Part shown: positions 1,913 through 21,517 of the stretch, piece by piece
Layout of the letters: every line of letters begins with the position of its first letter
Numbering within the stretch: the stretch's first letter is position 1
Notes under the pieces: model-generated
The model's database searches: none
Told to the model about the DNA's origin: nothing
The model's input: only the letters and a program-made list of their open reading frames with translations
Program-made: the position numbers and the translations under genes
From: a virus
DNA length: 21,517 nucleotides
Direction: 5' to 3' (one strand)
Virus record (IMG/VR): IMGVR_UViG_3300006925_000186
Coordinates: 1-21,517 of that record

Positions 1913-3022
1913 ATGGAAACACTCAAACAACTTCTCAAAAACACAGAAAACACCACGTTTAAGCGTAAGGAAATTTTAGAAATCGCTGATGAAAATAGTA
2001 TTCCTCATGGCGATGTTTGGAAGCTCCTTCGCGAAATGAATAACGTATCTCGTGGTTGCTATAGTTTTGGCCAAGCCAATAAGCCGGTCACTAAAGTAAA
2101 GCAACCTGCTGTTCTTCAAAATGTTAGCTCCATCGTTAACGAAGATTGTTATATTCCCGATAAAAACGGAACATATGTCAAATGGGGAAATCACTCCTCT
2201 TTGGTAAAAATTATCGAGTCTAAAATGTTTTACCCTATTTACATTCAGGGTATGAGTGGCAACGGTAAATCATTTATGGTTGAACAAGCCTGTGCACAAA
2301 CAAAGAGTGAATATATTCGTGTGCAAATTTCGCCTGAAACTGATGAGGATGATCTTATTGGAGGCTTTAGACTTATCAACGGCGAAACCGTTTTCCATAA
2401 AGGTCCTGTCGTAAAGGCAATGGAAAGTGGCGCGATTCTGCTTATCGATGAAATTGATCGAAGCACAAATAAGATTTTATGCTTACAGGGTGTCCTTGAA
2501 GGAAAGCCAATCATGATTAAAAAGACTGGCGAAGTAATTACTCCTTCTCATGGATTTAACGTTATTGCGACCGGTAACTCTAAAGGTCGTGGATCAGAAG
2601 ATGGTCGTTATAGCGCGGCATCAATTATCGATGATGCATTCCTAGAAAGATTCGTAGCGGTAATTGACCAAGAATATCCTTCTCCAGCACAGGAAGTCAA
2701 AATCTTAAATCTTCATGCAAATGCATTTGATGTTGATGATTCTGATTTCATCCAAAGTCTAATTGGATGGGCCAATGTTATTCGCAAAACATTTGAAAAT
2801 GATGGTGTGGATGACGTTATTTCCACTCGTAGACTATGCCATATCGTCAAAACATATTCGATTTTTAATGATCGTTTGAAATCTATCGAAATGTGCATTA
2901 ACCGATTTGATGATGATACCCGCCAAGCCTTCCTCGATCTTTATAGCAAGATTGACGTGAATGTCGATTATACTCTTGAAGATTCATTTAACTTGGCTCA
3001 GCCACAACCCGTATCACAATAA
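1913..3022 (+). CDS. AAA+ ATPase, MoxR/CobS-like
   Basis: This 369-residue protein is a single AAA+ domain behind a ~100-residue N-terminal region. Walker A is GMSGNGKS (113-120), Walker B ILLIDEID (175-182), sensor 1 the Asn of ATGN (222), the arginine-finger region is DAFLERF (Arg246) and sensor 2 is STRRL (304-308). The arrangement and the DDLIGGF loop are typical of the MoxR/CobS/GvpN group, which act as hexameric chaperone-like ATPases with a VWA partner. The upstream gene supplies that partner, so the pair probably works together in the host cytoplasm, hydrolysing ATP to remodel an unknown client. It has its own promoter and an AGGTAAG ribosome-binding site before ATG 1913, and is followed by two inverted repeats. 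CobS-like genes are recurrent in environmental T4-like phages; their function there is unsettled. Confidence 0.88.
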   Translation: METLKQLLKNTENTTFKRKEILEIADENSIPHGDVWKLLREMNNVSRGCYSFGQANKPVTKVKQPAVLQNVSSIVNEDCYIPDKNGTYVKWGNHSSLVKIIESKMFYPIYIQGMSGNGKSFMVEQACAQTKSEYIRVQISPETDEDDLIGGFRLINGETVFHKGPVVKAMESGAILLIDEIDRSTNKILCLQGVLEGKPIMIKKTGEVITPSHGFNVIATGNSKGRGSEDGRYSAASIIDDAFLERFVAVIDQEYPSPAQEVKILNLHANAFDVDDSDFIQSLIGWANVIRKTFENDGVDDVISTRRLCHIVKTYSIFNDRLKSIEMCINRFDDDTRQAFLDLYSKIDVNVDYTLEDSFNLAQPQPVSQ

Positions 3023-5925: not shown

Positions 5926-5933
5926 TATAAATA
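5926..5933 (+). promoter_or_regulatory. T4-type late promoter upstream of regA
   Basis: TATAAATA is an exact copy of the T4 late promoter box and is followed by CTATT, reproducing the extended form TATAAATACTATT. In T4 this box spans -13 to -6 and is read by gp55-bearing polymerase with the clamp as activator. The predicted start is ~5939, only 2 nt before the first regA ATG (5941). Confidence 0.7.
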
Positions 5934-5940
5934 CTATTTT

Positions 5941-6357
5941 ATGAATAATGACATTATAGAATGGTCTCCAACAAGCATGTTGGAGGTCTTATTGAGTGAA
6001 CCTGACGACTTTCTAAAAATAAAAGAAACACTAACTCGCATTGGAGTTTCTTCGAAGAAAGAACATAATACACTTTTTCAAAGTTGCCACATTTTACACA
6101 AACAAGGGCATTACTTTATTGTGCATTTTAAAGAACTTTTTATGCTTGATGGGAAACCATCAAACTTTACAGAGGATGATTTAGCAAGAAGAAACACCAT
6201 TGCAACGCTTTTATCAGACTGGGGTTTATTAGAAATTTGTAAAGTAGAAAACGCAAATCCAAAGACCTCTCTTAAAGCAATAAAGATTATCCCTCACCGA
6301 GATAAAAGAAATTGGACACTTCAGCCAAAGTATTCAATTGGTCTCACAAATAAATAG
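5941..6357 (+). CDS. regA: translational repressor RegA
   Basis: RegA binds start regions of early mRNAs and shuts off their translation, including clamp, loader and its own mRNA in T4. The product (138 residues from ATG 5941) contains FLKIKETLTRIGVSSKKE, FQSCHILHKQGHYFIVHFKELF and the segment RRNTIATLLSDWGLLEI, all close to T4 RegA (122 residues), and ends in PKYSIGL like the T4 PKYTIGN. Two starts are possible. ATG 5941 adds 12 residues absent from T4; ATG 5977 (Met13, MLEVLLSEPDDFLKI) aligns with the T4 initiator and sits in an 8-bp hairpin. Neither has a good Shine-Dalgarno. Position after genes 44 and 62 follows T4 order. A late box just upstream is unexpected, as T4 regA is an early/middle gene. 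Confidence 0.92.
   Translation: MNNDIIEWSPTSMLEVLLSEPDDFLKIKETLTRIGVSSKKEHNTLFQSCHILHKQGHYFIVHFKELFMLDGKPSNFTEDDLARRNTIATLLSDWGLLEICKVENANPKTSLKAIKIIPHRDKRNWTLQPKYSIGLTNK
5966..5985 (+). promoter_or_regulatory. hairpin enclosing the internal regA ATG
   Basis: CTCCAACA (5966-5973) pairs perfectly with TGTTGGAG (5978-5985) around a 4-nt AGCA loop. The A of the ATG at 5977 is the last loop base and its U and G begin the stem, so this alternative T4-like start codon would be buried. This fits autogenous control or a choice between the two starts, but being inside the longer ORF it could also be coincidental. Confidence 0.45.
6349..6356 (+). promoter_or_regulatory. possible late promoter for hsp20 (one mismatch)
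   Basis: AATAAATA differs from the T4 late box at the first base only and overlaps the regA stop codon. The predicted start, ~6362, is one base before the first hairpin of the hsp20 leader, which makes the placement sensible. In AT-rich DNA one-mismatch copies are common, so support is modest. Confidence 0.35.
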
Positions 6358-6879: not shown

Positions 6880-6887
6880 TATAAATA
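6880..6887 (+). promoter_or_regulatory. T4-type late promoter for the 6893-7083 RNA
   Basis: An exact TATAAATA starts 3 nt after the hsp20 stop codon. The predicted start is ~6893. The next gene begins only at 7098, so the promoter would mainly transcribe the structured non-coding stretch that follows. Confidence 0.68.
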
Positions 6888-19242: not shown

Positions 19243-19250
19243 TATAAATA
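19243..19250 (+). promoter_or_regulatory. T4-type late promoter for the 19277-21517 genes
   Basis: An exact TATAAATA in the 46-nt gap after the metallopeptidase gene. The predicted start, ~19256, leaves a ~21-nt leader before ATG 19277 with only a weak ribosome-binding site (GGGAA directly before the ATG). A four-codon frame starting at ATG 19270 overlaps the true start. Confidence 0.72.
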
Positions 19251-19276
19251 GATCTATAATCTTAACTTAATGGGAA

Positions 19277-20824
19277 ATGCGTAAATTTAGATCGTACTTA
19301 AACGAAGACATAGCCACCGGTTCTCTTAAAAAAGCAACAAAGCTTATTTTAAACTATTTAAGAAAGAAGACTGGGAAAACATCAATGTTCCATACGATGG
19401 GTATGGAAACATTCAAAAACAAAAATGGTGCTGGATATGGTATCCGATATTATTTACCCGGTGCATCGAAAATTGAATCGGTTCGCTTCAACTGGAAATC
19501 AATAGGGTCGGCAAACTCAACCAACTTAGCATCAGTCGATTTTTGGAATGGTACAACATCAGGACCAAATTATCACATTGCATTTGATCGTAATGTTTCT
19601 TTGGTTCAGGTTTTACCACAAATTGCTGATATCCTTAAAAGTGGAAAAATCGCCATGGGATACTTTATTACGTATCCAACTGATGTATCGCTCAAAGAAG
19701 ATTTTAGCGATGATGAATGTGACTTTCTAACAGAAGCCGTCGACCCAAACGATGCTTATGAAAACGTAGTAAGTCTTATTACAAGCCCAGGGTTTACTAA
19801 GCAAAAGGTATTTAAGGTCTGGAAATCAGTAGGTATTAAAATCTTCGACGAGTTAGAAGCGCAGAATCCGGCACTTATTCAAAAGGTTGGAAGAAAGTAC
19901 GACTGGAAAGGAACGAAAAAAGATATTACTAAACTCCTTTCTCAAAGAGATACGATTTTAACGGCGATTGGTTCTGTTCGTGGTTCTGTCAGAGCAGGTT
20001 CCTCAAAAGAACAGTATTCCTACAACTCACAGCTTGATGATTTAGAGGCACAAAAGGAAAAGCTTTCATATGAAAAGCAACTCGGCGATTTGGAAAACCT
20101 TATTAAAATGACAATCTCCGGTGCGTCCAATGCGCTCTTTGTTGCAGGCCGTGGAGGTATTGGTAAAACGTTTACCGTTGAAAAGGTCTTAGCTTCAAGT
20201 GGATTATCTGATGGTAAAGGTTACTTTAAAAACACCGGTACGGCATCAGCCGCAGGTATCTATTCTCTTTTGTTTAGATATCAAAATGATATCATCCTCT
20301 TTGATGATTCAGATGATGCCTTAAAGGACCAAGAAGCACGAAACATCTTTAAGGCTGCAACCGATACTAAAAAAGTACGAAAATTGGTTTGGAACAAAAT
20401 GGGTAAAAACGTCGTTGAACCCGATGAATACGATGACCCCGAGGAATTAATTGACCAAGGCAAAATTCCACGTTTCTTTGAATTTACTGGAAAGGTTATT
20501 TTCATCTCCAACCTAAAATTAGATAAGCTTGATCCTGATGGTGCTCTTAGGACCCGCGCATTTATGATCGAAATCGATCCCACCGATATTGAAATTTACG
20601 ATTTCATGGAATCAATCGTAGATAAAATAAAACTTGATGGTGATCTTGATCTTGACATGAAAAGTCGTAAAAAGGTCGTTGATTTATTACGTAAAGGAAA
20701 GTCTAAGCAAACGGCAAACCTTCGAAAACTTTCGAGGGCATTAAACATGCAAGCCGGCGCAATTGAATCTGGTGTAAACGTTGCTGATTCTGAACTTACA
20801 AGAATGATCGAAACCTATGCTTGA
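19277..20824 (+). CDS. AAA+/P-loop ATPase with capsid-targeting-like N-terminus
   Basis: The 515-residue protein starts MRKFRSYLNEDIATGS, resembling T4 capsid targeting sequences (MKTYQEFIAEA in T4 internal proteins); LNE at 8-10 fits the L/I-x-E site cut by the gp21 prohead protease. A second such site, FLTEAV (150-155), lies between the N-terminal domain and the ATPase part. Walker A is GRGGIGKT (291-298), Walker B DIILFDDSDD (338-347), sensor 1 the Asn of VIFISN (412), with Arg residues in DGALRTRAF. A charged coiled-coil-like stretch (~245-275) precedes the P-loop. A late promoter and this N-terminus suggest a virion-packaged ATPase, possibly injected with DNA. Its biochemical role is unknown. 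The next gene overlaps by 8 nt and also has a targeting-like N-terminus. Confidence 0.72.
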   Translation: MRKFRSYLNEDIATGSLKKATKLILNYLRKKTGKTSMFHTMGMETFKNKNGAGYGIRYYLPGASKIESVRFNWKSIGSANSTNLASVDFWNGTTSGPNYHIAFDRNVSLVQVLPQIADILKSGKIAMGYFITYPTDVSLKEDFSDDECDFLTEAVDPNDAYENVVSLITSPGFTKQKVFKVWKSVGIKIFDELEAQNPALIQKVGRKYDWKGTKKDITKLLSQRDTILTAIGSVRGSVRAGSSKEQYSYNSQLDDLEAQKEKLSYEKQLGDLENLIKMTISGASNALFVAGRGGIGKTFTVEKVLASSGLSDGKGYFKNTGTASAAGIYSLLFRYQNDIILFDDSDDALKDQEARNIFKAATDTKKVRKLVWNKMGKNVVEPDEYDDPEELIDQGKIPRFFEFTGKVIFISNLKLDKLDPDGALRTRAFMIEIDPTDIEIYDFMESIVDKIKLDGDLDLDMKSRKKVVDLLRKGKSKQTANLRKLSRALNMQAGAIESGVNVADSELTRMIETYA

Positions 20825-21517
20825 TATAGTTAACTTTAAGGAGTTTGTAGCTGAAGCCACAAACCTCACTCCTGCGGAATTAAAAAAGGATGCTTCAGGC
20901 GGCCCTAACGTTGGTGTTTCTCGGCTTGAAATTTTTACCAACATGGTAAAAAAACAAGAGCCACTTACTCTTATGAAGGGCGGAACAGTTATTGCCGCCA
21001 ACACTGAAGAAGTACTTGCTTCCATTGAACAGTTTAAAAAGGACAGTAAAACATTTAAATTTGTTGGCCTCGATGGTAAGACTTATTCGACTTCTGATAT
21101 CAAAAAATCTGCTGAATTCGGTGGAGGCGCAGGTGCCGGAGGTGGTACAGCACAAACTGCAGTCGGTGAATCGGCACAATGCCTTTGGATGGCGGCGATG
21201 CTAGGTGAAGGCCATGATAAGCCCGTTGATTATTTTACAGACGAAATTCTTTCTAAATACTTTAAGCGCATTTCGGTAGGCAAAACTTCTTTAAAGGATA
21301 TTTTAAATATCGATGAAGGTTGGAAAACGTCTGCATATCTTACTGCGCAATATGCCATCCGCGAAAACATCATTGATCGTGATATGACATTTCACCGCGA
21401 TGACAAATTAATGAAAGCAATTTATTCTGCTAAAAACGTTGCTTTCAAAAACAACGACTTTAAACCTTTGCCAGATGATAAGTGGAATCCAGGAGATATC
21501 TGGGCGGCTGAAAGAGG
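20817..21517 (+). CDS. putative packaged protein, function unknown (3' end outside window)
   Basis: ATG 20817 opens a frame that overlaps the ATPase gene by 8 nt and stays open to the window end, giving at least 233 residues. It starts MLDIVNFKEFVAEATNL; FKEFVAEA closely resembles the T4 capsid-targeting FIAEA with its gp21 cleavage site. Residues ~95-125 hold a Gly-rich segment (GGGAGAGGGTAQTAVGESAQCLW) that leads into a helical domain, and KWNPGDIW appears near the visible end, a motif I have seen in phage and restriction-associated proteins of unclear function, some nuclease-like. The pairing with an overlapping ATPase and shared N-terminal signal suggests the two are packaged together and act jointly. 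I cannot assign an activity. Confidence 0.7.
   Translation, partial: MLDIVNFKEFVAEATNLTPAELKKDASGGPNVGVSRLEIFTNMVKKQEPLTLMKGGTVIAANTEEVLASIEQFKKDSKTFKFVGLDGKTYSTSDIKKSAEFGGGAGAGGGTAQTAVGESAQCLWMAAMLGEGHDKPVDYFTDEILSKYFKRISVGKTSLKDILNIDEGWKTSAYLTAQYAIRENIIDRDMTFHRDDKLMKAIYSAKNVAFKNNDFKPLPDDKWNPGDIWAAER

Follow-up and report, generated by a model that had tools for sequence, protein, structure and literature searches.

The head tag of phage T4 is a textbook delivery signal, and its natural cargo, as far as known, consists mostly of small restriction inhibitors together with Alt. IPI, IPII, IPIII and Alt are tagged and injected; each is encoded behind a late box and carries a tag of 10–19 residues ending in an L/I-x-E cut. 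The internal proteins are small inhibitors (IPI, Ip2 and Ip3 inhibit type IV restriction) and Alt is an ADP-ribosyltransferase. Mutations in IPIII assign residues 4 and 7 to targeting and residues 8 and 10 to cutting, and the gp21 cleavage site follows L/I-x-E (PMC9026906). The virion proteome of cyanophage S-CREM2 includes a SAM hydrolase, a kinase, a nucleotidyltransferase, a Cas9-like nuclease, gp13 and gp136, and its authors left undecided whether the virion-detected enzymes are cargo or contaminants (PMC10665884). A nucleotidyltransferase of T4-GC 190 was found in S-SM1 virions (PMC3037559).

The two genes analysed here, p1 and p2, come from a marine T4-like virus of bacteria and share with the T4 proteins the late box, the tag and the predicted cut. 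The cargo here would be of another kind, an AAA+ ATPase and a protein of ~460 aa. Unlike the T4 internal proteins, p1 has two more, predicted internal sites and belongs to an operon of tagged enzymes. Searches of the open-access literature turned up no account in which p1, p2 or DUF6267 is cargo of the head. The signal for delivery has been described before; an AAA+ ATPase with internal prohead-protease sites heading a tagged-enzyme operon was not found in the literature searched. The T4-type delivery signal here marks a conserved late enzyme operon in aquatic T4-like phages, with the ATPase first.

The window, meaning the whole stretch of DNA analysed (21,517 nucleotides), is a viral contig of 21.5 kb that carries replication genes like those of T4. 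Upstream of the p1/p2 region (Table 1) lie UvsX, the gp41 helicase and a short SprT-like gene. The sequence-only reading had placed an exact late box ahead of both genes, and TATAAATA is indeed there, 26 bp from the p1 start codon. Across the window the box occurs 4 times, with 1.8 occurrences expected, and 4 or more turn up in 9 of 100 shuffles; a single TATAAATA copy is thus not beyond chance, and we rejected the box as stand-alone evidence. Its conservation carries more: a late box stands within 80 bp upstream of 37 of 39 distinct p1 homologues and of 0 of 131 UvsX, gp41 and SprT controls. Presence and conservation of the box strongly support the predicted late transcription from TATAAATA. 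The overlap of the two genes suggests translational coupling.

Table 1. Features of the p1/p2 locus, in window coordinates; a slash marks a predicted cut.
Feature	Coordinates	Strand	Basis
T4-type late promoter box TATAAATA	19243..19250	+	Read directly; kept before p1 homologues
p1, 515-aa AAA+ ATPase with N-terminal extension	19277..20824	+	ORF; phrog_1250; AAA+ model matches
p1 capsid-targeting sequence MRKFRSYLNE, predicted cut after E10	19277..19306	+	T4 IPII/IPIII positions 4/7/8/10; relatives
p1 N-terminal domain, residues 11-141	19307..19699	+	Model: separate alpha/beta domain before low-confidence linker 138-143
Predicted internal prohead-protease site 1, L139-K-E141/D	19691..19699	+	L and E invariant 24/24; linker pLDDT <50
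Predicted internal prohead-protease site 2, L151-T-E153/A	19727..19735	+	[LI]-x-E 24/24, then A/S/N; length-variable linker flanks
p1 middle domain, residues 154-249	19736..20023	+	Structure model
Walker A GRGGIGKT	20147..20170	+	G-x-GG-x-GKT invariant in alignment A2
Walker B region IILFDDSDD	20291..20317	+	FDDSDD invariant in alignment A2
p2, phrog_1462-related, 3' end beyond contig	20817..21515	+	ORF; phrog_1462 E 2e-18; complete homologue P0004
p2 capsid-targeting sequence MLDIVNFKEFVAE, predicted cut after E13	20817..20855	+	[FY]xx[FYH][LI]xE/[AG] kept in relatives
p1/p2 overlap, 8 bp	20817..20824	+	Read directly; many relatives share overlap

Two more TATAAATA boxes lie at window positions 5926-5933 and 6880-6887, the first of them 7 bp ahead of an ORF of 138 aa at 5941. 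In five relatives (L045, L048, L080, L131 and L147) the late box is only ~14 bp before the p1 or p2 start codon, a spacing that would make the transcript almost leaderless.

The first residues of p1, MRKFRSYLNE/D, have aromatic residues at 4 and 7, Leu at 8 and Glu at 10, equivalent to positions 4, 7, 8 and 10 of MKTYQEFIAE/A, the N-terminus of T4 IPII and IPIII. The p2 N-terminus, MLDIVNF7KEF10V11AE13/A, repeats the p1 spacing shifted by three residues. The window proteins therefore show the 10–19 residue tag with aromatics at 4 and 7 followed by L/I-x-E, with the proviso that window p2 has three extra residues and reads V-x-E, the V three before the cut standing where T4, and nearly all p2 relatives, have L or I. 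With the tag pattern written as [FY]xx[FYH]..[LIV]xE near the start and set before the S-CREM2 test described below, no window ATG ORF of at least 60 aa matches except p1 and p2. The T4-like N-termini MRKFRSYLNE/D and ..NFKEFVAE/A had been named from the sequence at the outset, and both were confirmed. Applied to 39.5 kb of T4, the pattern hits ipII and ipIII only and misses ipI.

IMG/VR yielded 139 candidate stretches with p1 relatives and at least 442 with p2 relatives, and the tag was counted in the subset that was fetched. Of the distinct N-termini, 37 of 39 for p1 and 64 of 90 for p2 carry it, against none of the neighbouring controls (0/32 UvsX, 0/42 gp41 and 0/57 SprT; 0/131 in total). 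Variants such as MQFKDYITE/E, MSNVVSFKSYLAE/A, MKSFQTFLIE/G and MHKFSGFKSLKE/A retain the aromatics and the site. Two near-complete relatives have the tag in 5–6 of 195–243 ORFs, mostly clustered around p1, with 0.8 expected from matches in internal windows of the same proteins. Some p2 homologues (in L131, L133, L147, L157 and L164) are untagged and begin (MATNLGSKELL.., MALGKLTPAEL..) at the point predicted to become the N-terminus after cleavage, so that the tag acts like a module that can be detached. The existence of untagged homologues, including that of cyanophage S-H38, indicates that p2 is able to function without it.

Near-complete relatives of 142–174 kb encode a gp21 homologue; none is on the window contig, which is a fragment. 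In the gp23 alignment, the T4 site SFLTE/A faces QYLNE/A and AYLAE/G at the end of the relatives' gp23 propeptide, so the sites predicted in p1 and p2 are of the type expected in this lineage. The earlier proposal of gp21-type sites in both N-termini agrees with what the relatives conserve. Conservation strongly supports a capsid-targeting N-terminus with a prohead-protease site, and two predicted internal sites of p1 add to this support.

These internal sites emerged from an alignment of 24 p1 homologues with identity down to 53%. Nine Glu columns are invariant after the tag, and in just two of them, E141 and E153, is the Glu preceded at a distance of two residues by L or I, in 24/24 homologues. 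Both fall in the linker of variable length that follows the N-terminal domain. The p1 structure model has a mean pLDDT of 75, drops below 50 at residues 138–143 and shows folded domains on either side. The conserved tag site and the two linker sites give three predicted p1 cuts, after E10, E141 and E153. Multiple cuts are also what one would expect if p1 and p2 were packaged and cut as prohead-only core or maturation factors, like gp67, gp68 and gp22, and were not delivered effectors: T4 core proteins are likewise gp21 substrates with several internal cuts (PMC9026906). We regard this explanation as improbable. p1 is missing near p2 in many relatives and p2 may be untagged, unlike core structural genes, and both genes sit among enzyme genes, away from the gp20–gp23 head cluster; the patchy distribution of p1 and of the tags makes a purely structural core role less likely.

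The assignment of p1 to the AAA+ ATPases draws on its motifs, its PHROG match and structural scores that are moderate (Z up to 7.8). Residues 237–476 match phrog_1250 (E 2e-27), the family of the NrdC.10 AAA+ ATPases, and the Walker A and Walker B core of that family is present. For model residues 264–515 the best matches are AAA+ folds: the segment aligns with the Rubisco activase AAA domain (Z 7.8), ClpA, RFC and NorQ, with scores lying so close together that a subfamily is not assignable. A Foldseek search with the whole p1 model gave hits of E 2e-3 or worse, mostly of AAA+ type. T4 NrdC.10, a hypothetical AAA protein, belongs to phrog_1250 by gene family and annotation; it shares the AAA+ domain with p1 and has neither the tag nor the long N-terminal extension.

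In the two near-complete relatives, a late region after gp41 holds most of the tag matches, in p1, p2, a DUF6267 protein and an NMNAT-like nucleotidyltransferase. The DUF6267 protein is RNA-ligase-like, with a KxDG motif. The tag is found in 65 of 95 distinct DUF6267 and 35 of 70 distinct NMNAT-like N-termini, and many of those scored as untagged read MKSFKQFNEE.., with F replacing L/I. A conserved late p1–p2–DUF6267–NMNAT-like cassette was seen in L030 (5992-12792), L007, L012, L079 and L152, where nearly all of the proteins have some form of MKSFKxYLxE at their start. The gene order is the same in P-HM1 and Syn1, with GC 533 (p2), GC 71 (DUF6267) and GC 190 (nucleotidyltransferase). The phrog_1462/T4-GC 533 proteins of P-HM1, Syn1 and S-H38 are whole-protein p2 homologues at the same place after gp41 and, unlike window p2, are untagged. 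In L205 (8918-9667, minus strand; genome G002), an untagged late-box gene lies between p1 and the DUF6267 gene; its SDQPDLAL..CELK string resembles a PD-(D/E)XK nuclease.

We examined proteins from published virion data for the same tag. In the S-CREM2 genome the strict matches are the SAM hydrolase (MKDFDSFLEE), the kinase (MKRFDAFLTE/E) and the nucleotidyltransferase (MKNFSSFLTE/A). All 3 of these 3 matches, a small number, are virion-detected (Fisher P 0.013, or 0.002 without structural proteins). Looser matches are the Cas9-like nuclease (..RFASFMAE/A), gp13 (MKDLHSFLTE) and gp136 (MQTFSMFFSE/D). A relaxed pattern was rejected as too loose, with 6 of its 13 matches virion-detected. As an observation in its own right, the virion-detected Cas9-like nuclease, SAM hydrolase and kinase of S-CREM2 (OR473000; L215/L216) start with capsid-targeting-like sequences. 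The nucleotidyltransferase detected in S-SM1 virions begins MKKFSAFLNE/A. The S-CREM2 and S-SM1 enzymes, present in purified virions (PMC10665884, PMC3037559), thus have the same tag as p1 and p2, and differ from the p1/p2 cassette except for the nucleotidyltransferase. The S-CREM2 genome has no p1 and no p2, so its proteome supports the tag rule and not p1 or p2 directly. The tag bears in turn on the cargo-or-contaminant question: a tag common to the S-CREM2 SAM hydrolase, kinase and nucleotidyltransferase argues that these are true cargo. A late box combined with [FY]xx[FYH]..[LIV]xE at the protein start is a rule that yields a testable listing of injected proteins in uncultured phages.

These data also bear on the idea that p1 works inside the cell in late infection as a normal ATPase of the T4 NrdC.10 family, its N-terminus being a trait of the lineage that has nothing to do with capsids. 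NrdC.10, untagged and in the same AAA+ family, is in keeping with that idea. We nevertheless consider it very improbable, as the tag is common to unrelated proteins of the cassette and not to neighbouring genes, the invariant L/I-x-E sites lie in a variable linker with no other obvious reason for their conservation, and tagged proteins are virion-detected in cyanophages.

Packaging and cutting of p1 and p2 are supported by the tag counts against controls, the late box, the match to the IPIII positions, the linker sites, the gp21 and gp23 data and the virion-detected tagged proteins. From these sequence features we infer that packaging and head-protease processing of both proteins are quite likely. 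With the tag, late box, conserved sites and cassette as the observed basis, we favour as probable the fuller reading that p1 and p2 are late-made cargo of a T4-like head that is cut and delivered. Delivery into the host, taken by itself and argued from the T4 precedent, is favoured with less assurance. p1 and p2 would be made late, and the N-terminal tag of 10–13 residues would recruit each into the prohead core. A gp21-type protease would then cut after L/I/V-x-E, taking the tag off both. Two further cuts in the flexible linker of p1 would probably separate a C-terminal AAA+ part of ~40 kDa from an N-terminal domain of ~15 kDa. The mature pieces would remain beside the DNA in the head and pass into the next host together with it. 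Since in relatives the genes are members of a late cassette whose enzymes are tagged, the role is most likely one played within minutes of the start of infection, ahead of phage gene expression, on incoming DNA or host machinery.

Of the two proteins, p2 is the less readily placed. A 98%-identical contig (L005/L085) extends it to 417 aa with its end still open, so that completion of the 3' gene, which the sequence-only reading had called for, was achieved in part. Complete homologues are of ~460 aa (P0004, 465 aa), and homology to phrog_1462 runs along the protein (P0004, E 1e-38, residues 63–460). The p2 model (pLDDT 89) matches P-HM1 E3SMZ1 (E 7e-22) among predicted cyanophage proteins. Against the PDB, Foldseek and VIA-align gave only noise (best E 1.6, Z 2.1), the p2 profile reached no better than E 1.5 with PDB sequences, and a Pfam scan of 54 p2-family members returned scattered weak matches only. 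The fold searches proposed earlier gave AAA+ matches for p1 and no PDB match for p2. E118, R194, WxPxD227 and S265-L-K267 are invariant in p2, which suggests that they form a catalytic centre; in the model, D227 and S265-x-K267 lie in or at strands. By eye these residues resemble the PD-(D/E)XK nuclease pattern, a likeness that we take as a guess from motifs. With no PDB or Pfam match for p2, the nuclease reading stays a hypothesis, and DNA action, as suggested earlier for the pair, is for p2 a motif-level guess with no structural match in the PDB.

p1 and p2 are adjacent and overlapping in many marine contigs. p2 is frequently present with no p1 nearby and with its own late box upstream, and in freshwater relatives p2 lies 0.5–1.5 kb from p1, so the two are not an obligate pair. 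A two-component injected system, as first read from the overlap, is plausible from overlap and marine adjacency, as long as it does not mean an obligate pair. A more specific form of the cargo reading has the p1 AAA+ part driving or loading p2, as a nucleic-acid enzyme, in one injected machine, for example an anti-defence one. The gene overlap and marine adjacency speak for it, as does the by-eye resemblance of p2 E118, WxPxD227 and S265-L-K267 to PD-(D/E)XK; p2 is frequently without p1 nearby, and has no PDB, Pfam or PADLOC match. We hold this form to be tentative and unlikely. Counter-defence would be a reasonable guess from the T4 precedent. The anti-defence role proposed for the pair found no supporting evidence: p2 was unmatched by the profiles of PADLOC-DB, a library of defence proteins and not of counter-defence cargo. 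It is doubtful, and somewhat more so than the specific form just given, that the protease activates the injected machine by freeing the AAA+ ATPase from its N-terminal domain in the head, the ATPase then acting with p2, and perhaps with the tagged ligase-like and NMNAT-like enzymes, on incoming DNA or a host defence before phage gene expression.

Several other proteins were seen in the course of these comparisons. In L014 (6464 onward), a 325-aa protein occupies the usual p2 position behind p1, is p2-like only over its first 123 residues and has its own tag-like start, MLNIINFKEFIFES. L200 (11855-13385, minus strand) carries four adjacent small paralogues that start MNLSNKxxxLEDAARGILEG, beside a tagged late gene; they are possibly a second internal-protein family with another tag. 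At the other end of the window, 1-1839 encodes a phrog_459 'peptidase' (CobT-like) and 1913-3022 a MoxR/CobS-like AAA+ ATPase (phrog_249), paired as in cyanophages.
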